Positions 2 through 22,673 of a stretch of DNA of 64,000 bases are shown here, piece by piece (the first letter of the stretch is position 1; every line of letters begins with the position of its first letter). A program made the translations under genes and the position numbers. The stretch comes from Cellvibrio zantedeschiae (GTDB lineage Bacteria > Pseudomonadota > Gammaproteobacteria > Pseudomonadales > Cellvibrionaceae): contig NZ_BMYZ01000001.1 of assembly GCF_014652535.1 (NCBI RefSeq), forward strand, positions 62,001-126,000. The letters run 5' to 3'. The notes below the pieces were generated by a model that searched no databases, had not been told where the DNA came from, and saw nothing but the letters and a program-made list of their open reading frames with translations.

Positions 2-487
2 GGTTATGCAGCTGGTACAGAATTCCAGGCAAATATTCCGTTGCGTTTAGTCAGTGACTATCTGGATGGTTTAGGTGTTATCGCAAGTGCCGCATTTATG
101 GACGGTGAAATTGATAACGCTGGCGTTAAACAAGAAGTTCCTGGTTTGTCCAAAGAAACCTATCAGTTGACCGTGTACTACGAAAACTCAGGTTTCGAAG
201 CTCGTGTGTCTGCACGTAAGCGTGATGAATACTTGTCTGAAACCCAGGGCTTAAGTTTGGCGTTGACTCCAGGTACAGATTTAGGTGCAACGTTGGTTGA
301 TGCGCAAATTGGTTATAACTTTGCAAACAGCGGCATTCAGGCTCTTGAAGGTTTGACTATCACCCTGCAAGCGCAAAATTTAACGAACGAATCTACAGTA
401 GTAACTGAACCTGATGACGCTCGCGAAATTGATCGCTACCAGAACTTTGGCGCTAACTATTTGTTAGGCTTCAGCTACAAGTTCTAA
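2..487 (+). CDS. TonB-dependent receptor, C-terminal end (partial)
   Basis: The reading frame is open from the left edge and ends in TAA at 485-487, so this is the last ~161 residues of a gene that starts outside the window. The residues alternate in the way of outer-membrane beta strands (long extracellular loops, short turns). They include the segment ITLQAQNLTNES, typical of the penultimate strands of TonB receptors, and the protein ends in FSYKF, with the terminal aromatic residue that BAM recognises. It would be an outer-membrane active transporter driven by TonB-ExbBD. The substrate is not visible here; the downstream halogenase and amylase suggest a carbohydrate-linked locus. An in-frame TTG at 41 is internal and not a start. 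Confidence 0.88.
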   Translation, partial: GYAAGTEFQANIPLRLVSDYLDGLGVIASAAFMDGEIDNAGVKQEVPGLSKETYQLTVYYENSGFEARVSARKRDEYLSETQGLSLALTPGTDLGATLVDAQIGYNFANSGIQALEGLTITLQAQNLTNESTVVTEPDDAREIDRYQNFGANYLLGFSYKF

Positions 488-514
488 GCACTGTTGCTAG
501 ACTAAGTTAAAGAT

Positions 515-548
515 AACCCTGTTAGTTTTTCGCTAGCAGGGTTTTTTT
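515..548 (+). terminator. Rho-independent terminator after the TonB receptor
   Basis: AACCCTGTTAG pairs with CTAGCAGGGTT (one wobble pair) around a short T-rich loop and runs into seven T residues. It sits 28 bases after the receptor stop and separates it from the halogenase gene. Confidence 0.85.
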
Positions 549-586
549 GCAACTAAGGCGCTTCCAAAAATTACTAAAGGCCAGCA

Positions 587-2077
587 ATGAATAAGCCTAT
601 AAAAAAAGTTGTGATCGTCGGCGGTGGCACAGCGGGTTGGATGTCTGCTGCGTTACTAAAAAAAGTAATGGGCTCTGTTGTCGATATCGAACTTATTGAA
701 TCTGAAGAAATCGGCAGAATTGGGGTGGGCGAGGCAACGATTCCACCTATTCGCTATTTCAATCAAGCATTGGGAATCGATGAAGCAGAGTTTCTTCGTG
801 AGACTAAAGCCAGCATTAAACTCGCTATTAAATTTGAAAACTGGCGTGTTCCCGGCGAAGGTTATTTCCATACTTTTGGTGGTGCAGGAAAAAACATCGG
901 GTTTTGCGCGTTTCACCATTTTTGGTTGCGTGCAAAAACGCTGGGCGATAAATCCAGCCTATGGGATTACGATTTGAATTATCTCTGCGCAGCGTCAAAT
1001 AAATTTGCGCCCATAAATTCAAAAGATCCTGCCTTGGAAATGCAATATGCGTTTCATTTTGACGCATCGCTTTACGCAAATTTCTTACGAAAATTTAGTG
1101 AAAATATTGGTGTAATACGCACAGAAGGTTTGATTGAACGGGTCACTGTTCATCCGGATTCTGGTGCCGTAGATCATCTTATCTTGAAAAATGGCAGGGT
1201 AGTTCACGGCGATTTATTTGTAGATTGCTCTGGTATGCGTGCTTTATTGATTCAACAAACACTGGGCACGGGTTACGAAGATTGGAGTCACTGGTTGCCT
1301 TGTGATCGTGCTATTGCTGTGCCCTCAGAACGCCTCGCGGCGACTTTGCCTTATACGCGCTCAATTGCCCATTCCGCCGGTTGGCAGTGGAGAATTCCTT
1401 TACAACACCGCAATGGTAATGGAATCGTCTATAGCAGCAATCATTATTCGCAAGATGAAGCTGCGGCCATACTACTAAATAATTTGGATTCCAAAGCGCT
1501 GGCCGAACCGAATTTTATTTCGTTTAAAACCGGTCGTCGGTTAAAACAATGGAACAAAAATGTTATTGCTGTGGGTTTGTCGAGCGGTTTTTTGGAGCCA
1601 CTTGAATCTACCAGTATCCACCTTATCCAATCAGCCATAGTTCGCCTGATAAAACTTTTTCCGCATGCGGGAATAGATGCAGTTAACGTTGCGGAATACA
1701 ACAGGCAATCGAAAACCGAGTTTGAGCAGGTGCGCGATTTTATTATTTTGCATTATCACGTCAATGAGCGAACTGATAGCCAATTCTGGCGCGATCTGCG
1801 CAATATGGAAATTCCTGAAAGTCTTACACACAAAATTAATTTGTTCCGGGCTACAGGAAAAATATTTCGTGAGCAGGATGACCTATTTTTAGAAAGTTCC
1901 TGGCTACAGGTTATGTTGGGGCAGGGTATTGTTCCGCGTGATTATCATGCGCTGGCCGATAATCTATCTGAGCCCGATTTAATGTCTTTGCTCGCCAATA
2001 TGAAAAAAATTAAGCAGAGCCCGCTGGAACAAATACCAAGCCATGATGAATTTCTCAGGCAGGTTTGTGCAAGATAA
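587..2077 (+). CDS. Flavin-dependent tryptophan halogenase family protein
   Basis: A 496-residue protein of the PrnA/RebH type, which uses reduced FAD, O2 and halide to form HOCl and passes it along a tunnel to a lysine. Visible features are the FAD motif GGGTAGW at residues 12-18, the tunnel/active lysine region with K78 in SIKLAIKFENW, the family motif GWQWRIP at 265-271 (WxWxIP), and the PLEST stretch with E340 matching the glutamate near the active site in PrnA. So the catalytic set looks intact. ATG 587 is preceded by AAAGG. Homologues are common next to TonB receptors in polysaccharide-degrading proteobacteria, where the substrate is unknown; tryptophan itself is not implied by this context. 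It lacks a signal peptide and should be cytoplasmic. Family assignment is firm, substrate is not. Confidence 0.88.
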   Translation: MNKPIKKVVIVGGGTAGWMSAALLKKVMGSVVDIELIESEEIGRIGVGEATIPPIRYFNQALGIDEAEFLRETKASIKLAIKFENWRVPGEGYFHTFGGAGKNIGFCAFHHFWLRAKTLGDKSSLWDYDLNYLCAASNKFAPINSKDPALEMQYAFHFDASLYANFLRKFSENIGVIRTEGLIERVTVHPDSGAVDHLILKNGRVVHGDLFVDCSGMRALLIQQTLGTGYEDWSHWLPCDRAIAVPSERLAATLPYTRSIAHSAGWQWRIPLQHRNGNGIVYSSNHYSQDEAAAILLNNLDSKALAEPNFISFKTGRRLKQWNKNVIAVGLSSGFLEPLESTSIHLIQSAIVRLIKLFPHAGIDAVNVAEYNRQSKTEFEQVRDFIILHYHVNERTDSQFWRDLRNMEIPESLTHKINLFRATGKIFREQDDLFLESSWLQVMLGQGIVPRDYHALADNLSEPDLMSLLANMKKIKQSPLEQIPSHDEFLRQVCAR

Positions 2078-2124
2078 TGATGAATCTCAGCTGTAGTATC
2101 GAATAATTAACCAGGAGAGCGTGG

Positions 2125-3969
2125 ATGAAAAAATTAATATCGGTGATAGGCGTGTGGATCTTGTCGTCCTACGCCCTTGCAACAGACACGCTTATCAAGC
2201 ATGTGGAGCCGCTCAGTTGGTGGGTGGGTATGCAGCATTCGCAATTGCAACTCATGGTGCATGGAGAAAATATCTCTACACTTACACCAGAAATTAATTA
2301 CCCGGGTGTCACCCTTGTTAACACCCAGACAACGGATAATAAAAATTTCCTGTTTATAAACTTGAATATTTCTGAAGCAACAAAAGCGGGTAGCTTTGTT
2401 ATTTCATTTAAATCCGGCGATAAGCAGCTTGCTAAAATTGATTATCGTTTGGATACGCGCGCAAAAAATTCCGCGATGCGCAAAGGTTTTAGCTCCAATG
2501 ATGTTATCTATTTGCTAATGCCTGACCGTTTCGCAAACGGTTCCGCCGCCAATGATTCAATGGCAGATCAATTGGAAAAATATAATCGCACCTTGAGCGG
2601 TGGACGTCACGGTGGCGATTTAAAAGGTATGCAAGAGCATCTGGATTATATTGCCAATATGGGGTTTACCATGATTTGGCCAACGCCCCTCGTTGAGAAT
2701 AATCAGCTGCAATATTCCTACCACGGTTACTCTGCAACTAATCATTATAAAATTGATAGTCGCTTTGGCAGCAATCAAGACTACAAAAATTATGTGATAG
2801 CAGCGAACAAAAAGGGCTTGGGTGTTATTCAGGATGTGGTGCTTAACCATATAGGTTCGGGTCATTGGTGGATGAAAGATATGCCCGCCAAAGACTGGAT
2901 TAATTTTCCCGATAATTATACGCAAACCACACATCGCCGTACCGCTATTCATGATCCTCACGCCGCACCTGAGGATGCAACATTATTTACCGATGGCTGG
3001 TTTGTGCCCACCATGCCTGACTTGAATCAGCGCAATCCGTTATTGGCAACCTATTTAATTCAAAATTCGGTTTGGTGGATTGAATACGCCAATCTCTCGG
3101 GTATTCGCGAAGATACCTATTCTTATTCGGATAAAAATTTCCTCAGTGCTTGGGGAAAGTATTTGCTTGAGGAGTATCCCAACTTTAATGTGGTTGGCGA
3201 GGAATGGACAAGCAATCAGGCTATTGTTGCTTCCTGGCAAAAAGGCAAACGCAATGATAATGGCTACATATCCTACATTCCGAGTTTGATGGATTTTCCA
3301 GTGCATGATGCGATGCGCACTGCACTAACTGAAAATGAAGGCTGGTCTACAGGCTTAATAAAATTATACGAAACCATCGCCAATGATTTTATTTACGCGG
3401 ATCCTATGAATATGGTTGTGTTTCCAGAGAACCACGATACCAGCCGTATTTTTTCAGCCTTAAATGACGACGTAAATTTGTATAAAAACGCCATGGTGTT
3501 AAGTGTAACTACGCGTGGTATACCACAATTTTTCTACGGCTCAGAAGTATTGGCGACCAGCCCCAAAGAACGCGATGACGGTGCCGTGCGTAGCGATATG
3601 CCGGGAGGTTGGGCTGGCGATAACATCAATGCATTTAGCGGTAAGGGATTAACTCCAGCACAGAAAGATGCGCAGGCATTTTTGAAAACATTATTAAATT
3701 GGCGTAAGACAAACGAAGCGGTAAAAACTGGAAAGCTTGTGCATTACGTTCCTGAAAATTCCACGTATGTTTATTTCCGTTATACAGATTCAAAAACAGT
3801 GATGGTTGTGCTGAATAAAAATACCCAGGACTCAAAGCTGGATTTAGCCAGATTTCAAAATATGCTAAAGGGAAAGGCCAGCGGTAAAGATATTTTGACT
3901 TCATCGGTAGTTGATTTTTCTCAACCACTTACCTTAAAAGCCAGGACGCCCATGGTGATTGAATTATAA
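2125..3969 (+). CDS. Secreted GH13 alpha-amylase / cyclomaltodextrinase-like enzyme
   Basis: A 614-residue protein with a signal peptide (cleavage about residue 19-20, after SYALA), so periplasmic or secreted. Residues ~25-110 form the beta-sandwich typical of the cyclomaltodextrinase N domain. The (beta/alpha)8 barrel follows, with GH13 regions DVVLNH (237-242), nucleophile D330 in GIRED, acid/base glutamate at 359 in VVGEEW, and NHD at 436-438. A C-terminal beta domain closes the protein. The nucleophile motif reads GIRED instead of the usual GFRxD. It should hydrolyse alpha-1,4 linkages in maltodextrins or cyclodextrins entering through a TonB receptor (SusA/neopullulanase-like). RBS AGGAG precedes ATG 2125; it lies 47 bases after the halogenase and is probably cotranscribed. 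Confidence 0.88.
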   Translation: MKKLISVIGVWILSSYALATDTLIKHVEPLSWWVGMQHSQLQLMVHGENISTLTPEINYPGVTLVNTQTTDNKNFLFINLNISEATKAGSFVISFKSGDKQLAKIDYRLDTRAKNSAMRKGFSSNDVIYLLMPDRFANGSAANDSMADQLEKYNRTLSGGRHGGDLKGMQEHLDYIANMGFTMIWPTPLVENNQLQYSYHGYSATNHYKIDSRFGSNQDYKNYVIAANKKGLGVIQDVVLNHIGSGHWWMKDMPAKDWINFPDNYTQTTHRRTAIHDPHAAPEDATLFTDGWFVPTMPDLNQRNPLLATYLIQNSVWWIEYANLSGIREDTYSYSDKNFLSAWGKYLLEEYPNFNVVGEEWTSNQAIVASWQKGKRNDNGYISYIPSLMDFPVHDAMRTALTENEGWSTGLIKLYETIANDFIYADPMNMVVFPENHDTSRIFSALNDDVNLYKNAMVLSVTTRGIPQFFYGSEVLATSPKERDDGAVRSDMPGGWAGDNINAFSGKGLTPAQKDAQAFLKTLLNWRKTNEAVKTGKLVHYVPENSTYVYFRYTDSKTVMVVLNKNTQDSKLDLARFQNMLKGKASGKDILTSSVVDFSQPLTLKARTPMVIEL

Positions 3970-8873: not shown

Positions 8874-11099
8874 ATGAAGAATATTATTAAGGGCCTCACA
8901 CAAAATTCTTCTATTCCTATTTGGGGCGGAATTGAATGCACGGTTCACAGGCTGGGGGATGCCTATGGCGACCAATTGCTTCGCAACGGACATAATGATC
9001 GTGCTTCAGATTTAAAAATCATTGCGGAGCTTGGTATAAAAACGCTGCGCTACCCTGTGGTATGGGAACGAATTGCACCTCAAGGGTTAGCAAAAGCTGA
9101 TTGGTCGTGGACTGATGAACGGCTCGCACAATTAAAAGAGTTAGGCATAAATCCTATCGCTGGATTGCTGCATCACGGTAGTGGGCCGAGCTTTACCAAT
9201 TTAATTGATCCTGATTTTCCCGCCAAATTTGTGGAATTTGCCGTTGCGGTTGCTGAGAGATATCCCTGGTTAGAAATATTCACACCCATTAACGAACCAT
9301 TAACTACGGCGCGTTTCAGTTGTCTGTATGGGGTTTGGTATCCACATCTTCGCGATGACCACGCATTTTCACTTGCCGTATTAAATCAATGCAAGGCGAA
9401 CATTCTGGCAATGCGTGAAATAAAAAAAATTATTCCATCTGCAAAGTTTTTGCAGACCGAAGATCTCGGCAAATGTCACGGAACTAAAAAGTTGCAGTAT
9501 CAATGTGACTTTGAAAATGAACGGCGATGGGTGTCCCTGGATTTGCTCACGGGGACGCTAAATAACCAATCTGTGATGTGGAAATATTTTAGAAAGAGGG
9601 GGAAAGTTAGTGAAGATGATTTGGAGTATTTCACTACTCATTATTATGCTCCCGATATTATTGGTATCAATCACTATATTACCAGTGAGCGTTTTCTGGA
9701 TGAAAACAGGAAAAAATATCCTGAGTGGTCACATGCGCAAAATGGAAAAGATACCTATTCTGATATAGACATCGTCCGCGCTGATATACACAAAAGAGAA
9801 GGACACTACAAAATATTAAAATCCGTGGCTGAGCGTTACCATTTACCTATAGCTTTAACGGAAGTTCATCTTGGATCATCGCGGGATGCACAGCTGCGCT
9901 GGTTTATGGAAGCCTATAGCGCTGCAACCAGGCTTAAGGATGAAGGCGTAGATATACGTGCAGTCACGAGTTGGTCGTTGTTCGGAGCATATGACTGGAA
10001 CAGCCTTCTCACACAAAATAATAATTTTTATGAATCGGGCGCTTTTGATATTCGATCAGGCGAACCCCGACCCACGGCCGTCGCGCATTTGATTAAGCGC
10101 TTATGTGAAAATAAAGTGCCTGACCATCCAGTGCTGCAAGCGGATGGTTGGTGGAAGAATCCCGAGCATGTTCACTTTGCATTTGGTTCATCAAAACACG
10201 CCAGAGGCTTGCCCACGATTGAGCACATGTTCCCCGAAAATTTGTTGGCAGCAAACGTTAAACCCATATTGATTATTGGTGCCACGGGTACATTAGGCAG
10301 GGCATTTGCACATATCTGCAGCATGCGTAACATTTCATACGTGTTATTGTCCAGAAACGATATGGACATTATGAATAAAGAACGCGTCGAATTTTTTTTA
10401 CAGAAGCATGAGCCTTGGGCTGTGGTTAACGCAGCGGGATTTGTGAGAGTAGATGATGCGGAAACTTCACCGGAGTTATGCTTTCGCGAAAATGCTTACG
10501 GTCCCGTCGTTTTAGCACAGGCCTGTTTAAAATATGGCGTAAACTTTTTAACCTTTTCTACAGATTTGGTTTTCAATGGCCAAAACACAAAGCCCTATCG
10601 CGAAAGCGATTCGGTTTCGCCGCTGAATGTTTACGGCGCCTCAAAAGCCTATGCGGAGGCACATGTACTAGCCGCAAATCCATCCGCCTTAATTGTGCGA
10701 ACAAGTGCTTTCTTTGGCCCATGGGATGAGCATAATTTTATTGCACAGTTAATCAAATCAGTGACAAACGGCAAAAGCTTTATGGCAGCTAGTGATCAAA
10801 CCATAACGCCGACTTATGTTCCTGATTTAGTCAATAATTGTCTCGACCTTATTATCGATGAAGCCAAAGGAATTTGGCACATTGCCAATAGCTCTGCTAC
10901 TACCTGGTCGGAGTTTGCTTTTTCAGCCCTGGATGTTGCCGGTGTTGATAAAAAGCTCATTAAGCCTGTTGTGTCCACCGTGTTTAATCCAAAAGCTAAA
11001 CGACCTGCGAATAGCGCACTGGAGAGTGAAAAAGGAATTTTTTTGCCAAAGCTAGAAGATGCTATCGAAAGGTTTTTTAGAGAGGTTAAGAGTATTTGA
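8874..11099 (+). CDS. Fusion of GH1-like glycosidase and RmlD-like sugar-nucleotide reductase
   Basis: A 741-residue fusion. Residues ~15-410 are a GH1/clan-A barrel: TPINEP with acid/base E141 and a barrel-end glutamate E330 in ALTEVH, where canonical GH1 has (I/V)TENG. Residues ~463-741 are a short-chain dehydrogenase of the dTDP-4-dehydrorhamnose reductase type: GATGTLGRAF at 469-478, the catalytic YGASK with Y587 and K591, and FSTDLVFNG at 561-569. A hydrolase and a nucleotide-sugar reductase in one chain is odd chemistry; it may link removal of a sugar to remodelling of its precursor. AAAAGG precedes ATG 8874. It is 60 bases after the GH2 gene and is probably in the same operon. No signal peptide. 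Confidence 0.82.
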   Translation: MKNIIKGLTQNSSIPIWGGIECTVHRLGDAYGDQLLRNGHNDRASDLKIIAELGIKTLRYPVVWERIAPQGLAKADWSWTDERLAQLKELGINPIAGLLHHGSGPSFTNLIDPDFPAKFVEFAVAVAERYPWLEIFTPINEPLTTARFSCLYGVWYPHLRDDHAFSLAVLNQCKANILAMREIKKIIPSAKFLQTEDLGKCHGTKKLQYQCDFENERRWVSLDLLTGTLNNQSVMWKYFRKRGKVSEDDLEYFTTHYYAPDIIGINHYITSERFLDENRKKYPEWSHAQNGKDTYSDIDIVRADIHKREGHYKILKSVAERYHLPIALTEVHLGSSRDAQLRWFMEAYSAATRLKDEGVDIRAVTSWSLFGAYDWNSLLTQNNNFYESGAFDIRSGEPRPTAVAHLIKRLCENKVPDHPVLQADGWWKNPEHVHFAFGSSKHARGLPTIEHMFPENLLAANVKPILIIGATGTLGRAFAHICSMRNISYVLLSRNDMDIMNKERVEFFLQKHEPWAVVNAAGFVRVDDAETSPELCFRENAYGPVVLAQACLKYGVNFLTFSTDLVFNGQNTKPYRESDSVSPLNVYGASKAYAEAHVLAANPSALIVRTSAFFGPWDEHNFIAQLIKSVTNGKSFMAASDQTITPTYVPDLVNNCLDLIIDEAKGIWHIANSSATTWSEFAFSALDVAGVDKKLIKPVVSTVFNPKAKRPANSALESEKGIFLPKLEDAIERFFREVKSI

Positions 11100-14312: not shown

Positions 14313-14520
14313 ATGGCCAAAAATAACGGTTGTGTGAATATTATGTAGCTGCTTGCAGCTGCAAGGCTGCGCTCAAGCATTTCTAAAAAATTAAATGCAT
14401 CGATATACTCTTGGTTTACGAAGGCTTGGTTTTACCCCGCCAATGCCTAAGGCAAGCTTTAGTATCATCGAATTTCCTACTCTTAAAATTAATATGCGGC
14501 TCGGTGTTTAACACTAGTTG

Positions 14521-14549
14521 CATACGTATGTATGAACTGAATACGTATG
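14521..14549. promoter_or_regulatory. Operator-like palindrome pair 1
   Basis: CATACGTATG at 14521-14530 and GAATACGTATG at 14539-14549. The two TACGTA cores begin 19 bases apart (14523 and 14542). The palindromic form is that of LacI-type or similar dimeric regulators; the regulator is not in the window. A weaker related site, AGACGTATCT, lies at 14592-14601. Confidence 0.6.
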
Positions 14550-14897
14550 TAGCTGGTTGTACGTTTTCTGGCTTCTTAATAATATTATCGCAGACGTATC
14601 TGTTGCTGATCTGTCTCAATCGCTGTTAGTTATTTGGCGCAGTTTATACTGCGCTTTTTTATTTCTGCCGCTATTGTTATGTCCCACTTGTCGCCCCCGT
14701 CGTATTAATCTTCATTTTTTGAATTTATCGGTATTTCAAGAAAATTTTTAAGAAGGCTTTTGAATTTACAAGCCAAAAATTTTGTATACCAGCGAATTGC
14801 CAACTAGCCTGTAATCAAACCATATATACCTTTTGACTGGGACCGTTCATAGGAGTGTAGGTATGGGTACTGCTATCCCTCCTTAGCGCCTGTTTTG

Positions 14898-14926
14898 CAT
14901 ACGTATGTACTTGTTGAATACGTATG
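14898..14926. promoter_or_regulatory. Operator-like palindrome pair 2
   Basis: CATACGTATG followed by GAATACGTATG, with TACGTA cores at 14900 and 14919, again exactly 19 bases apart. Aligned with pair 1, the first 12 bases and the last 11 are the same while the 6 central bases differ, which is the pattern of a selected protein-binding arrangement. Confidence 0.6.
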
Positions 14927-15297
14927 CATGATGTTGTGAGCAAGGCGTCACACAAATTAACATCTAGTAGTTAATGCCGAATTTCTAAATTCTGAAATAA
15001 GTTCTTGTAATACCGTGTTGGTGCTTTGGTGGTGCTGATTTCGACAAGACGCTTAGCGCTGCCTAACCATAAAAAACGCAGTCATTAATTTGTTTCAATA
15101 GTTCTATTTCGAATGTGGATCTTATGGACGCCGCTAATTAAGAGCAGCCATAGCGCAATAAATATTTGTAATGATACCTAGTGAAGTTTTCGGTAAGAGT
15201 CTTTGCGATTTGTACCGGGTGCAGCTCATTTATTATTGTTAAATTCGTTTCTGCGCCGCCTACATTTCAAAAAAATAACATAGGGGAGAGTAAACTG

Positions 15298-18200
15298 ATG
15301 TTCAATTATCGTAAAACACTAGGCATCTTTGCCTTGGTTTGCACTATCGCAAGCCTTGCGGGATGTGGTGGTGCCAGCGGCACTGGTAGTGACACTACGC
15401 CGATAAAAACCTGCGGCAATTTTCAAATTGTTTTGGCCGATGGCTCCTGTGGTGCACCGCCACCACCGCCACCCTGTGCCGACGGCTTCATTCGCGCTAC
15501 GCCTGATAGCGCCTGCGTTAAATCTGATTTTAAGTTGCCGACAATGCCAGCCAAAGTTGCTGATGATGAAGCGGTAATTTATTTCAATAAAGAAGATAAA
15601 AATTTTGCCGGCTATACGCTTTATACCTGGCAATCCTGTAGCCCCACCTGGTTAAAACCAAGCTCTGGCTGGACTGATGAATCGCAAGTGATTCAAGGTG
15701 TTTCTGAAGCAGAACAAGACCCTATTTACGGTGCTTATTTTGTGGTGAAACTCGCCCCGGGTGGAACCTGTGGTAATTTCATTATTAGAAGTGCTGGCCA
15801 GGCGCGTCAAACCAACGATTTGACTATAGGTACTGCAACGACTGGCAGTCCTTTTGATCGCCGCTATTTTGTGATTGCTGATCCGTCAGATTTGCGCAAC
15901 AGCCGCGTAAGCGCTTTGCCGATTTGTATTAACGATGTGTGTGCAAAATTTGAAGAGCCCAAGTTGGCTATTTCCAATATAGCTGCACACTGGATTGATG
16001 CTTCAACTATTTTGTGGGATCGCGAAGTATCTAATGTAAAACTTTATTCTGCTAACGACGGCGGAAAAATTTCTGCCAATAAAGATGGCTCTGTTGCTAA
16101 CGGCACTGTGGTGGCAAGTCTCTCTGCAACCAGCATTAATGATGCCCAGCGAGCATTGGTTCCGCACCTGAGAAATTATCGCGCTTATTCGCTTAATTTA
16201 ACGGCCGATGTGATTAAAGGTTTGCTGAAAAAAGAATTGGTTATTGTTGGCCAAACATCTACCGGTAACTTGGTGGGAACGCGTTTGCAAACCGCGCAAA
16301 TTCTTGATGCTTTGTACACCGCGGGCGCCAACGACGCTAACGAAGCGAAATTGGGTGTGAGTTACACCGGCGGCAATGTTAGTGCATCTGTATGGGCGCC
16401 AACAGCAACTAAAGTTGAGTTGCGTGTGTACGGCAATGATTTGGTGATCGAAAGCACCAAAGATATGACTGAAAATAAAACCACCGGTATCTGGACTTAT
16501 AGCGCTGCTAAAGCAGAGTTGGATCGCAAATTTTATCGTTTCCGTGTCACTGTATTTAATGCATTCACAAATAAAACCGAAGTGTTGGAAACAACAGACC
16601 CTGAATCTGTGAGCTTATCGACCAACGGTTTGCATTCGCAATTTGTAAATTTGAATGATAGCGATTTGAAACCTGCCGGTTGGGATGGTCAGGTTGTGCC
16701 AGAAGTTTCTGCACCGGAAACCATGTCAATTTACGAAACCCACGTTCGCGATTTCAGTGCGAATGACCAAAGCACACCGGTCGAGCATCGCGGTAAATAT
16801 TTAGCATTTACAGATACCAATGCTGCGCCGGTTAAACATTTGAAAGCCTTGGCTGATGCTGGCTTAACGCATGTTCATTTGTTGCCAATTGCCGATGGTT
16901 CCTCCATTAGCGAAGATCCTGCGACCCAAATTAATTTGGACAGTTATGTATTTGAATTGTGTGCGGCACAAAGCCCACGCGATAGTGCAATTGTGTGTAA
17001 TGGTGTAGAAAAACCTAACGCAACCTTGCGCAGCGTATTGCAAAAATATGCGGGCGATTCAACCAAGCAACGTGCAGTGATTGATGCGTTGAGAGATTTT
17101 GATGCGTTTAACTGGAACTACGATCCTGAACATTTCAATGCGCCGGATGGTAGCTACGCAACCAACGCAAAAGGTGTGACACGTATTCTTGAAACCCGTG
17201 CCATGAACCTCGCGTTACACAACCTGGGTTTGCGTGTGGTTTACGATGTGGTTTATCCGCACATGGCTGCTGCCGGTGTTAAAACAGCGAACTCAACGTT
17301 TGACAAAATTGTTCCCGGTTATTACTTCCGTCAAAACGCAATTTCTGGCGCGGTAGAAACCCAAACCAATGCGGGTCCAGATACGGCAACTGAGCATGTT
17401 ATGGCTGCCAAATTTGTATCTGATTCCTTGGTGCAATGGGCTTCTGCATACAAAGTGGATGGCTTCCGTTTCGACCAATCGGGTTACATGCCTAAATCAG
17501 TATTGGTAAATGCGTACAGCGCTGTTAAGGCGGTTGATCCTGATAACTATTTTTATGCTGAAGCTTGGACCGGCGGTAGTTCGTCGGGTGACCGTATTGC
17601 CGAGCGTGCTTCGCAAGTACCTTTAGCGGGTACAGGTATTGGTACTTTCAACGATGTAATCCGCAACCCGCTGCGTGAATTGGCGCTGGTGAATGGCGGT
17701 GCCCTGGATCGCGTGCGCGCTGGTTTGGCGGGTAACCTGGCTGACTTCCGCATTTTGTCCAAGTCTGGCAAAACCGTTAAAGCAAGCACTGTTGGCGCTT
17801 ACAACCTTGATCCGCAGGAAGCCATTAATTACGTTGAGAAACATGATAACGAAACCCTGTGGGACTGGATGCACAGACCTAACGCGCTGCCTGCTAATAC
17901 AACTGTAGAAAATCGTGTGCGCATCCATGATATGACCTTAGCCGTGCCACTCCTGAGCCAGGGCGTACCATTTATCCAGGCCGGTAGCGACATCCTGCGT
18001 TCCAAGTCCATGTCATCCAACAGCTATAACGCGGGTGACTGGTTCAATGTGCTGGATTTCACCAAGCAAACTAACAACTGGAAAGTGGGCTTGCCGCCAG
18101 CGAGCGACACCTCTGATGCAAACATCCTCTTGGCCTTTGCTGACGAGCAATCCAAACCTACGCCAGCTTTGATACAAAAATCATCCGATGTATTCAACGA

Positions 18201-19644
18201 GATTTTGAAAATAAGCAAAAGCAGCCCGCTGTTTAGCCTGACAACGGCAGCCGATGTTATGGACCGTGTTGGTTTCCACGATGGCGGTACTACCCAAAAA
18301 TCGAACTTGATCGTGATGAGTATTGATGATGGCGCAGGCAAGGTAACGGGTACCCAAACCAACCGTGCAGACCTTGATCCTAAAGTCGATGCAATTGTGG
18401 TGATCTTTAACGGCTCTGCCACGGCGATTACGCAAAAAGTACTGACTTCTGCGGGCTTTGTATTGCACAGCATCCAAAAAACCTCTGTGGATGATACAAC
18501 TCGCACCGCAAGCTTTACCGAAGGGACAGGTGGCGGCAGCTTTACGGTGCCGGCTTATACCGCTGCAGTATTCGTTAAACCGCAATCAGGCGCGCAAGGT
18601 GCAGGTCTTTCTGCGACTGCGACCTCAGGCTATGAGCCACCGGTTCCCTACGGGGATACCGCCCTTTATGTGCGCGGTAGCGTATCTCCTGCCGGTTGGG
18701 ATGCAACGGCTGCTAACCGCATGAAGTACGAAGGCAACGGCATTTACTCTGTGGTTCTGGATGTTCCGGCAGGCACTAACGCATTTAAAGTGGCTGAAGC
18801 TAACTGGAGCTTGCCAAACCTGGGTTCAAACCAGGCGGTAACGGTTGGTACTCCTGTGACCTTGACCCAAGGCTCGAACGATAACCTCAATCTCACTGTG
18901 GCTACGGCTGGCAAATACCGCTTCGAACTGAATGCACTGCAAAGCACCACGGCGCCAATTTTGACGGTGACTAACCCGGACACCTTTGGTGCCACTGCGG
19001 TTTACCTGCGCGGCACTGTATCGGCTACAGGTTGGGATGCAGCAGCAGGTAATCGCCTGGTTTACGAAGGCAACAGTATTTATGCCTTGAAACTAGATCT
19101 TGCTGCGGGTGACTACGTGTTCAAAGTGGCTTCGTCAGATTGGAGCACCTTCAATCTGGGTAACGCCTCTGCGGTTACCTTGGGTGCTGAGCTGCCCATT
19201 ATTCAAGGCAGCAACGACAACATCCCAATTCACATCACCAAAGCGGGCAGCTACCGTTTTGAAGTGAACACGCGTAAACCTGATGCTCCAGTGGTTAAGG
19301 TTTACCAGGATGACTTGTTCAAAGACACGCCCATCTATGCACGCGGCACAGTGTCTAGCGCAGGTTGGGATGCAACCAGCGCTAACAAGTTCAGCTACAA
19401 GGGGGCAGGTCTGTACACCTTGGGGTTAAACATTGCTGCTGGTAATTACATGTTCAAAATCGCTGAAACCAACTGGTCGAACCCGAACCTGGGTGCGCCC
19501 TCCGCAACCCTGGGTGTACCAACGGATTTGGTTCAAGGTTCAAACGACAACATTGCTTTGAGTATCCCAACGACAGGTGATTATGTTTTCACCGTGGATA
19601 CCACCAAAGCGGATGCAATTACTGTGACTGTGGATTCGAAATAG
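15298..19644 (+). CDS. Pullulanase-type GH13 debranching lipoprotein with three C-terminal repeat modules
   Basis: 1448 residues from ATG 15298, chosen for the ribosome site about 10 bases upstream and because it begins a clean lipoprotein signal (LAGC then GG). An upstream GTG at 15181 would put 39 unrelated residues before it. Order: Cys/Pro-rich linker; N-terminal pullulanase-associated (CBM41-like) module with VIYFNKEDKNFAGYTLYTW; beta modules; the barrel with DVVYPHM, nucleophile D726 in GFRFD, acid/base E755 in FYAEAW and D850 in EKHDNE; a pullulanase C domain; then three ~111-residue repeats. It should cleave alpha-1,6 bonds of pullulan or branched maltodextrins at the outer-membrane surface. 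The neighbouring TonB receptor would import products. Confidence 0.92.
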   Translation: MFNYRKTLGIFALVCTIASLAGCGGASGTGSDTTPIKTCGNFQIVLADGSCGAPPPPPPCADGFIRATPDSACVKSDFKLPTMPAKVADDEAVIYFNKEDKNFAGYTLYTWQSCSPTWLKPSSGWTDESQVIQGVSEAEQDPIYGAYFVVKLAPGGTCGNFIIRSAGQARQTNDLTIGTATTGSPFDRRYFVIADPSDLRNSRVSALPICINDVCAKFEEPKLAISNIAAHWIDASTILWDREVSNVKLYSANDGGKISANKDGSVANGTVVASLSATSINDAQRALVPHLRNYRAYSLNLTADVIKGLLKKELVIVGQTSTGNLVGTRLQTAQILDALYTAGANDANEAKLGVSYTGGNVSASVWAPTATKVELRVYGNDLVIESTKDMTENKTTGIWTYSAAKAELDRKFYRFRVTVFNAFTNKTEVLETTDPESVSLSTNGLHSQFVNLNDSDLKPAGWDGQVVPEVSAPETMSIYETHVRDFSANDQSTPVEHRGKYLAFTDTNAAPVKHLKALADAGLTHVHLLPIADGSSISEDPATQINLDSYVFELCAAQSPRDSAIVCNGVEKPNATLRSVLQKYAGDSTKQRAVIDALRDFDAFNWNYDPEHFNAPDGSYATNAKGVTRILETRAMNLALHNLGLRVVYDVVYPHMAAAGVKTANSTFDKIVPGYYFRQNAISGAVETQTNAGPDTATEHVMAAKFVSDSLVQWASAYKVDGFRFDQSGYMPKSVLVNAYSAVKAVDPDNYFYAEAWTGGSSSGDRIAERASQVPLAGTGIGTFNDVIRNPLRELALVNGGALDRVRAGLAGNLADFRILSKSGKTVKASTVGAYNLDPQEAINYVEKHDNETLWDWMHRPNALPANTTVENRVRIHDMTLAVPLLSQGVPFIQAGSDILRSKSMSSNSYNAGDWFNVLDFTKQTNNWKVGLPPASDTSDANILLAFADEQSKPTPALIQKSSDVFNEILKISKSSPLFSLTTAADVMDRVGFHDGGTTQKSNLIVMSIDDGAGKVTGTQTNRADLDPKVDAIVVIFNGSATAITQKVLTSAGFVLHSIQKTSVDDTTRTASFTEGTGGGSFTVPAYTAAVFVKPQSGAQGAGLSATATSGYEPPVPYGDTALYVRGSVSPAGWDATAANRMKYEGNGIYSVVLDVPAGTNAFKVAEANWSLPNLGSNQAVTVGTPVTLTQGSNDNLNLTVATAGKYRFELNALQSTTAPILTVTNPDTFGATAVYLRGTVSATGWDAAAGNRLVYEGNSIYALKLDLAAGDYVFKVASSDWSTFNLGNASAVTLGAELPIIQGSNDNIPIHITKAGSYRFEVNTRKPDAPVVKVYQDDLFKDTPIYARGTVSSAGWDATSANKFSYKGAGLYTLGLNIAAGNYMFKIAETNWSNPNLGAPSATLGVPTDLVQGSNDNIALSIPTTGDYVFTVDTTKADAITVTVDSK
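18655..19641 (+). repeat. Three tandem ~111-residue starch-binding-like modules in the pullulanase
   Basis: Repeat starts are at 18655, 18991 and 19324 (spacing 336 and 333 bases). Each has the plan xxYxRGxVSxxGWDAxxxN, then AGxxxFKxAxxxWS, NLG, and QGSNDN followed by GxYxFxxxT. Conserved Trp and Tyr residues suggest sugar stacking. Protein-level similarity exceeds DNA similarity, so these are old duplications. Confidence 0.85.
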
Positions 19645-19652
19645 ACCCCCTC

Positions 19653-19686
19653 CCAATCCTTTCCCGAAGACTCGGGAAGGGATTGG
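19653..19686. other. Long intercistronic hairpin without T-run
   Basis: CCAATCCTTTCCCGA pairs with TCGGGAAGGGATTGG (one G-T pair) around a 4-base loop, 9 bases after the pullulanase stop and 51 before the TonB receptor start. No poly-T follows, so it is more likely an mRNA-stability element or partial attenuator than a full terminator. Confidence 0.6.
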
Positions 19687-19736
19687 TTAACGAGGTTCGA
19701 ACAACAAAAACTAAATGACTAGTCGAGATTAAGCAG

Positions 19737-22673
19737 ATGAAAAATTTTAATGTAAAACCGCTGGGAGTTGTCATCTCCGGGTTGTTAATGGCAGCGACCA
19801 CCCAATCGGTGCTCGCGCAAGATGCAGACAAAAAAGCGATAGAAGAAGCTGATGAAGTCATCATTACTGGCTTCCGCGCATCCATCGCCAATTCGATCGA
19901 AATGAAGCGCAACGCCGACACTATTGTGCAAGCGATTTCGGCGGAAGATATCGGCGGCTTGCCAGATAAATCTATCGCAGAATCACTCAGCCGCTTGCCC
20001 GGTATTACCGTCACCCGTTCAAGCGGCCAGGCCGGTACTATCCAGGTGCGCGGTATGGGCGAGGGCTACGTGTTCTCCACATTAAATGGTCGCGAACAGG
20101 TATCGCCGAACGGCAGCCGCGCCATGGAGTTCAGTCAGTTTCCATCAGAATTAATTAACTCTGTTGAAGTTTACATGTCTCCCAAAGCTTCGCTGATTGA
20201 GGGTGGTATTGCAGGTACTGTAGAGCTTAAAACCATCAATCCCCTGAAGATGAAAGATGACCAAAGCATACAGATTGGCGTGCGCGGCAACTACAACGAC
20301 AAAGCCGATGAGCTTTATGAAGTTGAGCCATACGGCAAACGTTTCTCTTTATCTTTCTCTAAAAAATTGTTGGATAACACTTTGGGCGTGAGCTTGGGTT
20401 ATGCAAAATTATTGCAACCTAACGCCGCATCCCAAATTGAAAACGACAACTATTCCAGACCTGCGCTAACAGTGGATGGAAAAGACGTTTATGCACCAGA
20501 GAGTTTTTTTGTAAAACAAAAAGGTGGTGAAGATGATCGCGATGGCTACATGGCCACCGTAGACTTTGAACCCAACGAACATCTTGCCATTGAAGCAGAC
20601 GCTTTTTACTCCAAATTTAAATCGCAAAGTGATGAACGCGGTATTCGTGTGCAAGGCTTCAGAAATATGAATGTCTACAACACGACTTACTTCGACGACA
20701 TCTACATGACTGGCGGTACTTTTGTTGGCAGAAAAAATTCCCAGACAATCGATTTCAAAGTTGAGAACAACGATACCACGACCGATTACGATATTTTCTC
20801 TGGCGGTTTTAACGCTAAATGGTCTGAAGATAAATGGAACATCGCGGCCGATCTTTCGCATTCAGAAGCGTCAGGTTTATTTAGAAATTCTCTGTCGCGT
20901 TCATTTCTTTATAAAAAAGGCCCGGTGGATTCTGCGCATCCTGATGGCTGGTATCGTGACGATGACCAGCAAGCGGCCTTTGCGCTTAACGGCATCAATA
21001 TTCCCAAGTTCAGTTTGAATCGCGATTACACCAATACGGCGACACTGCGCATGGGCCAATATGAAGAATATCCCTATATCAACGAAGACAAAATTGACGC
21101 TGCGCGTATCGATGGAAAATATGAATTGGATACACCGGTCATAGTGTCCATTGAAGCAGGCGTGCGCGTTGCGAAACGTAATCACAAACAATCGCGTAAT
21201 GTGTTTGTGTATGGCGACGGTGCTGGTGGTCGTATCACCACGGATTATTCATTGCCAATCACTGATGCAAATTCTGATGTTGTGAATTGGAAAGGTGATT
21301 TCTCTAACATGCCGTCGTTTCTTGCAATCGACAGCCGTTCCATTATCGAACAAGCCTACAAAAATAATTTGGTGTTGATGAGCCGCACTAAATACACCGG
21401 CCCCAATACACCAGAAATTGCCAACCCTGATGCCTTTGATGCAAATGGCAACCCGAAACCGCGTTCAATTGTTGCGGGTGCGCGCTGGGGCGAGGGGCGT
21501 TCCTGGTCCATGACTGAGCAGGCGGATATTCAAGAAGATGTAAATTCTTTTTACATTCAAGCGAATATCAACACCACTCTGTGGGACAGGGACTTAACGG
21601 GTAATATCGGTTTCCGCCGTATTGATACCGAACAATCCAACATGGCATTTGTGAATGTTAACGGCGACACCAGCAAAGGCGCAGTTGAAATTTGCGATGA
21701 CGTAGGTGATTGCCGTTCAGATTTGGCGTTAACACGCATCGGTGTTGAGTACAGCAATAATTTGCCGTCACTGAATTTGAACTATCACCTTGCTGAAAAC
21801 GATCAATTGCGTTTGGCATTAGCACGTGTATTGTCGCGCGCGCCCATCAATCGTCTTGCAAACTTTAACCAAGGAAGTATCGATGCCAATAACCCGAATG
21901 GCCCGACTTACAACTACGGTAGCAACAGCTCGCCAACCTTGAAGCCGTTCCTTGCAGACCAAATCGATATTTCTTACGAACACTACATGCCAGATACCAA
22001 TGGTTCATTCTCCATTGCGGCTTACCATCGTGAAATTAAATCCTTCATTCAAGATGCATCTATCGAGAATTTTGATTTCGCTGCAAATGGTTTCCCCATT
22101 CCAGAAACTTTCCCCGTCGTGGAAGGTGGTTTGGTCGTGGATAAACCCGTGCGCAACGGAACCTACACTTTCTCAACCAATAATGCTGAAGGTGGATATA
22201 TTCGCGGTTTGGAAATTTCCTATACGCAAACCTTTAACTGGTTACCGGGGCTTTTCAAAGGCTTGGGCGTATCGGGTAGTATCTCTAAAGTAGACAGTAA
22301 AATTACTACCGTGAGCACCCTGGATCCCAACAATCCAGATAGTAATTTGCCGTTCTCCGGTTTGGTGGAAGATTCCGGCAACATTACTATTTTCTACAGC
22401 TACGAAAATTTCGAAACCCGTTTATCGACAACGCACCAGGGCTCTTTCGTGGGTGAAGCTTTAAACATCGCCCGTGCGCCAGTAATTTATGCTGCTGAAA
22501 CCGTTATGGATTTCCAGGCAAGCTACAAATTCGATAACGGAATCAATATGATTTTCTCGGTAAGTAACCTTACTGATGAACCAAACCGCAGTTACAGCCT
22601 CAGCGAAGAATTGCCACGCCGTTTAAACTGGTTCGGCAGAACCTTCTCACTGGGTGCAAACTACAAGTTCTAA
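19737..22673 (+). CDS. TonB-dependent receptor, probable maltodextrin transporter
   Basis: 978 residues with a signal peptide (cleaved after SVLAQ, about residue 27). The plug domain starts with a TonB-box-like DEVIITGFRASI and continues with EDIGGLPDKSIAESLSRLPG and QVRGM, typical of the large carbohydrate-type TonB receptors of Cellvibrio, Caulobacter and Xanthomonas. The barrel ends in SNLTDEPN and a terminal NYKF. It would carry oligosaccharides across the outer membrane using TonB energy. Location just after a surface pullulanase is the basis for proposing maltodextrins or pullulan fragments as substrate. That substrate is inference. Confidence 0.9.
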   Translation: MKNFNVKPLGVVISGLLMAATTQSVLAQDADKKAIEEADEVIITGFRASIANSIEMKRNADTIVQAISAEDIGGLPDKSIAESLSRLPGITVTRSSGQAGTIQVRGMGEGYVFSTLNGREQVSPNGSRAMEFSQFPSELINSVEVYMSPKASLIEGGIAGTVELKTINPLKMKDDQSIQIGVRGNYNDKADELYEVEPYGKRFSLSFSKKLLDNTLGVSLGYAKLLQPNAASQIENDNYSRPALTVDGKDVYAPESFFVKQKGGEDDRDGYMATVDFEPNEHLAIEADAFYSKFKSQSDERGIRVQGFRNMNVYNTTYFDDIYMTGGTFVGRKNSQTIDFKVENNDTTTDYDIFSGGFNAKWSEDKWNIAADLSHSEASGLFRNSLSRSFLYKKGPVDSAHPDGWYRDDDQQAAFALNGINIPKFSLNRDYTNTATLRMGQYEEYPYINEDKIDAARIDGKYELDTPVIVSIEAGVRVAKRNHKQSRNVFVYGDGAGGRITTDYSLPITDANSDVVNWKGDFSNMPSFLAIDSRSIIEQAYKNNLVLMSRTKYTGPNTPEIANPDAFDANGNPKPRSIVAGARWGEGRSWSMTEQADIQEDVNSFYIQANINTTLWDRDLTGNIGFRRIDTEQSNMAFVNVNGDTSKGAVEICDDVGDCRSDLALTRIGVEYSNNLPSLNLNYHLAENDQLRLALARVLSRAPINRLANFNQGSIDANNPNGPTYNYGSNSSPTLKPFLADQIDISYEHYMPDTNGSFSIAAYHREIKSFIQDASIENFDFAANGFPIPETFPVVEGGLVVDKPVRNGTYTFSTNNAEGGYIRGLEISYTQTFNWLPGLFKGLGVSGSISKVDSKITTVSTLDPNNPDSNLPFSGLVEDSGNITIFYSYENFETRLSTTHQGSFVGEALNIARAPVIYAAETVMDFQASYKFDNGINMIFSVSNLTDEPNRSYSLSEELPRRLNWFGRTFSLGANYKF

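Follow-up and report, generated by a model that had tools for sequence, protein, structure and literature searches.

Two pairs of palindromes upstream of a pullulanase gene of Cellvibrio zantedeschiae are, with little doubt left by the sequence comparisons, binding sites for a homologue of the maltodextrin regulator MalR. Their placement further suggests, with good though not full confidence, that they are MalR operators from which activation occurs at a fixed upstream position and at two separate promoters. Both pairs lie in the window, the 64,000-nucleotide stretch of DNA analysed here, and the coordinates of its relevant features are given in Table 1.

Palindrome pairs and the MalR homologue

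Both pairs have the form TACGTA-N13-TACGTA, with cores at 14523 and 14542 in pair 1 and at 14900 and 14919 in pair 2. The cores are thus 19 bp apart in both, with 377 bp from the start of one pair to that of the other, exactly as the initial annotation had described; pair 1 lies ∼755 bp and pair 2 ∼378 bp from the pullulanase ATG. The genome-wide search that it had proposed for 19-base TACGTA pairs near starch genes returned, in a pattern scan of the whole 4.27-Mb genome, just these two pairs, both within the starch cluster. The paired sites share an extended motif that had not been described, the 14-mer TGMATACGTATKCA, an even palindrome with the central CG that is an operator rule of the LacI family (PMC4052901), which is also common to other MalR genomes. 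With up to one mismatch allowed, all 10 genome sites of TGMATACGTATKCA fall in one 20-kb starch/maltodextrin cluster and 0 elsewhere, as expected from the earlier proposal that the palindromes control maltodextrin genes. Six more sites, likewise absent from that annotation, lie directly upstream of the window (C1:57297-59507). The shorter pattern MATACGTATK occurs at 19 genome sites, 10 of them in C1:57299-76926, and at two mismatches TGMATACGTATKCA left 38 remaining genome sites compared with 30 in a reversed-pattern control, a level at which weak members are inseparable from noise. A literature search by motif string gave no relevant match.

The cluster encodes a LacI-family regulator, a GH15-MFS unit, GH13, a TonB receptor operon and the pullulanase-TBDR2 pair, the two genes of which probably form one operon. 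Between them, at 19650-19690 of the window, is a stem-loop; orthologues have a hairpin there of other sequence. Elsewhere in the window, a single open frame (8874-11099) combines a GH1 glycosidase domain with a sugar reductase domain of the RmlD type.

The regulator gene (G000:C1:52062-53105) is located ∼24 kb upstream of the pairs, and its product combines PF00356 (LacI helix-turn-helix) with PF13377 (sugar-binding). It is 82-85% identical to proteins of several Cellvibrio species and 65% identical to a protein of a Shewanella sp. ANA-3 locus; Shewanella MalR is a predicted maltodextrin regulator (PMC2996990). Among 144 family genomes, 50 had both paired sites and MalR, 0 had sites only, 7 carried MalR without exact site pairs and 87 had neither (Fisher 1.6e-31, phylogeny ignored), and the sole genus member without sites (G005) lacks MalR as well. 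The dimeric LacI-type regulator postulated from the palindromes alone has therefore found a candidate in this homologue, given its strict co-occurrence with the paired sites. The same 14-mer is found near MalR genes in Shewanella, Colwellia and Catenovulum; the Shewanella sp. ANA-3 locus examined contained no site matching at least 13 of the 14 positions. Autoregulation of MalR in this genome was considered and rejected, because no site with up to one mismatch is present upstream of malR.

Table 1. Features of the window (positions in the window; C1, contig coordinates)
Feature	Position	Strand	Remarks
End of TBDR1 operon, presumed MalR-controlled	2..3969	+	Site pair outside window, C1:59474-59507
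TBDR1 3' end	2-487	+	TBDR1 operon
Tryptophan-halogenase-like protein	587-2077	+	Between TonB receptor and cyclomaltodextrinase in starch cluster
Cyclomaltodextrinase/amylase	2125-3969	+	TBDR1 operon
Predicted MalR site 1a (pair 1, distal)	14519..14532	.	TGCATACGTATGTA
Predicted MalR site 1b (pair 1, proximal)	14538..14551	.	TGAATACGTATGTA; centre 19 bp from 1a
Predicted short-RNA promoter	14557..14585	+	-35 TTGTAC 14557-14562, 17-bp spacer, -10 TAATAT 14580-14585; same geometry in two orthologues
Predicted ∼72-nt RNA	14592..14664	+	Conserved 3' part TCGCTGTTAGTTATTTGGCGCAG...CTGCGCTTTTTT; terminator stem-loop 14636-14655
Predicted MalR site 2a (pair 2, distal)	14896..14909	.	TGCATACGTATGTA
Predicted MalR site 2b (pair 2, proximal)	14915..14928	.	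TGAATACGTATGCA; kept in four genomes
Predicted pullulanase promoter	14934..14963	+	-35 TTGTGA 14934-14939, 18-bp spacer, -10 TAACAT 14958-14963
Pullulanase	15298..19644	+	PUD, CBM48, Pullulanase_N2, X25 domains; lipoprotein-like N-terminus
TonB-dependent receptor (TBDR2)	19737..22673	+	3' of pullulanase

Promoter geometry and a candidate short RNA

A generic sigma-70 scan returned no promoter, and promoters appeared only when the flanks were aligned on the operator centre on the gene-facing side, with -10 and -35 elements assigned from the sequence. In this alignment, the TTG of the -35 element starts at +13 from the operator centre and TAnnnT (-10) follows at +36/+37, leaving a spacer of 17 or 18 bp. 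TTG at +13 was present in 66% of 203 gene-facing flanks and in 58% of 142 deduplicated ones, a comparison of orthologue flanks that retains shared ancestry, compared with 14% of non-facing flanks, 5% towards the partner site and ∼2% at other offsets. Similarly, TAnnnT at +36/+37 was found in 72% of gene-facing flanks (67% deduplicated) versus 3.5% at other offsets. All five promoters of this genome fit the geometry and none of three control flanks did, and lone Shewanella sites share it, for example TTGTGC-N18-TACTAT ahead of MFS genes. The genes downstream of sites are those of pullulanase, GH13, GH15, GH97-like proteins, amylases, MFS and TBDR (some named by eye). Promoter elements, on which the initial annotation was silent, adjoin both pairs, and pair 2 with its promoter is kept ahead of pullulanase in four genomes. 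Directly 3' of pair 2, an imperfect inverted repeat TTGTG...CACAA (14934-14955) is also kept in four genomes; this repeat, which overlaps the predicted pullulanase promoter, may be the site of a second factor.

Of the four pair-2 genomes, three (G000, G003 and G017) also have pair 1, and their upstream genes differ. In all three, the -35 and -10 elements are at the fixed offset, and 3' of the pair there is a near-identical TCGCTGTTAGTTRTTT, a GC stem-loop and a T-run, so that each genome has a predicted promoter and terminator of its own for transcripts of ∼72, 77 and 157 nt. The 5' part of the RNA is not conserved among them. Across the family, exact copies of the element are confined to these three genomes, with one in each, and other hits are at control level. 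An Rfam search with the short RNA gave no match, and target pairing within the regulon gave nothing significant among 12 tested (best z = -1.87, TBDR2). We tentatively suggest that pair 1 could serve as the MalR-activated promoter for a regulatory small RNA (∼70-150 nt) nested ahead of the pullulanase gene, a proposal that we regard as possible rather than probable. It is also conceivable, and to be taken seriously, that no functional RNA arises from pair 1 and that the terminator either serves as an attenuator within a long, alternative leader of pullulanase or is the remnant of a lost gene: the element is confined to three genomes, its 5' part has diverged and no target was found, although the near identity of the 3' part behind different upstream genes and the retention of the promoter elements at a fixed offset argue against this. 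Between the pairs, the window contains a third promoter-like element, TTGTAT-N17-TAGCCT (14782-14810), with the match TTGTGT-N17-TAGGCT in G017, and it is preceded by a conserved TTTTTAAGAAGGCTTTT block.

Activation, repression and the spacing of the sites

Relative to the predicted start, the proximal operator is centred at about -47.5, and ∼6 bp separate its edge from the -35 element downstream. A position upstream of -35 is better suited to activation than to repression by blocking, and a fixed site just upstream of an apparently weak -35 is what would be expected of an activator. Independently of this, transposon-fitness data from three Shewanella species led their authors to regard MalR, annotated as a repressor, as a likely activator: malR-malT cofitness was 0.94 (rank 1) in S. 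loihica and similar in ANA-3 and S. amazonensis (PMC5443562). The same authors remarked that the MalR site lies >300 bp upstream of malT (PMC5443562), a distance that, going by the geometry found here, would fit a promoter whose transcript has a ∼300-nt leader. Overall, it is likely that MalR activates the starch-use genes. We propose that each pair would bind two MalR dimers on similar helix faces, centred near -47.5 and -66.5, and that, with maltodextrin, MalR would contact RNA polymerase at the weak promoter immediately downstream and switch transcription on. Pair 2 would drive the pullulanase-TonB receptor operon, and pair 1 would drive a separate short transcript that is stopped at its own terminator.

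Alternatively, MalR on the same sites could be a classical repressor relieved by maltodextrin. According to PMC5443562, MalR is listed as a repressor in RegPrecise, characterised LacI-family proteins are mostly repressors, and a repressor at -47.5, just upstream of -35, could still block alpha-CTD contacts or an UP element. However, we consider this unlikely because the operators overlap neither the predicted -35 and -10 elements nor the start, as a steric repressor would, because simple blocking would not require an offset that is constant to the base, as it is here, and because malR-malT cofitness is positive in the three Shewanella species.

Distances between neighbouring sites cluster at ∼19-20, 29-30, 39-41, 50-52 and 60-65 bp and are helically phased (R = 0.70 at 10.5 bp for 75 deduplicated pairs, in which some shared ancestry remains). 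As the initial annotation had suggested, MalR dimers therefore probably bind cooperatively. Its further suggestion of DNA looping, by which the two pairs 377 bp apart would jointly control the pullulanase promoter, fared worse and was rejected as a function of the pairs. The two pairs are identical in internal geometry and LacI itself is able to loop, but the pair-to-pair distance, from proximal to distal centre, is 358, 417 or ∼478 bp across orthologues with no common helical phase, pair 1 is missing in one relative (G020), and each pair has its own predicted promoter with a conserved terminator between them, leaving looping highly improbable. Finally, that the palindromes are due to chance or belong to an unrelated regulator would agree with the lack of enrichment of lone TACGTA in the window (10 versus 7.6 expected) but deserves almost no credence given 0 matches to the 19-bp pair in 100 dinucleotide shuffles, the confinement of all sites to one cluster and their strict co-occurrence with MalR.

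Relation to known systems and implications

The arrangement resembles the Shewanella MalR regulon described by Rodionov et al. 2010 (PMC2996990) in its homologous regulator, in the same 14-mer near malR loci of several Shewanella species and in its targets (MFS transporter, TonB receptor, glucosidases and amylases). In contrast to Shewanella, operators in the Cellvibrio relatives are mostly paired or clustered, the pullulanase-TBDR operon is added and three genomes add the short-RNA promoter. Tandem LacI-family sites are known at helical steps, with peaks at 13, 22 and 32 bp that were read as two dimers binding cooperatively (Ravcheev et al. 2014, PMC4052901). The distances between sites here also follow helical steps, but in this series they are about 2 bp less than whole numbers of turns. 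Cra/FruR of E. coli is a LacI-type protein that activates gluconeogenic genes (PMC4052901), and MalR here is likewise a LacI-type protein and likely activator; unlike Cra/FruR, it is a local sugar regulator, and its distinctive point is one fixed offset to -35 across many operons and genera.

An orphan motif is thus tied to a named regulator in the Cellvibrio relatives. The base-exact rule, with the operator centre 12.5 bp before -35, makes MalR promoters predictable genome by genome and offers an explanation for fitness data that place MalR among the activators, against the usual annotation of LacI-family proteins as repressors. The finding extends the MalR regulon, and the candidate small RNA exposed by the geometry rule is a new lead: if it is real, maltodextrin would induce starch enzymes together with an RNA that tunes other genes.
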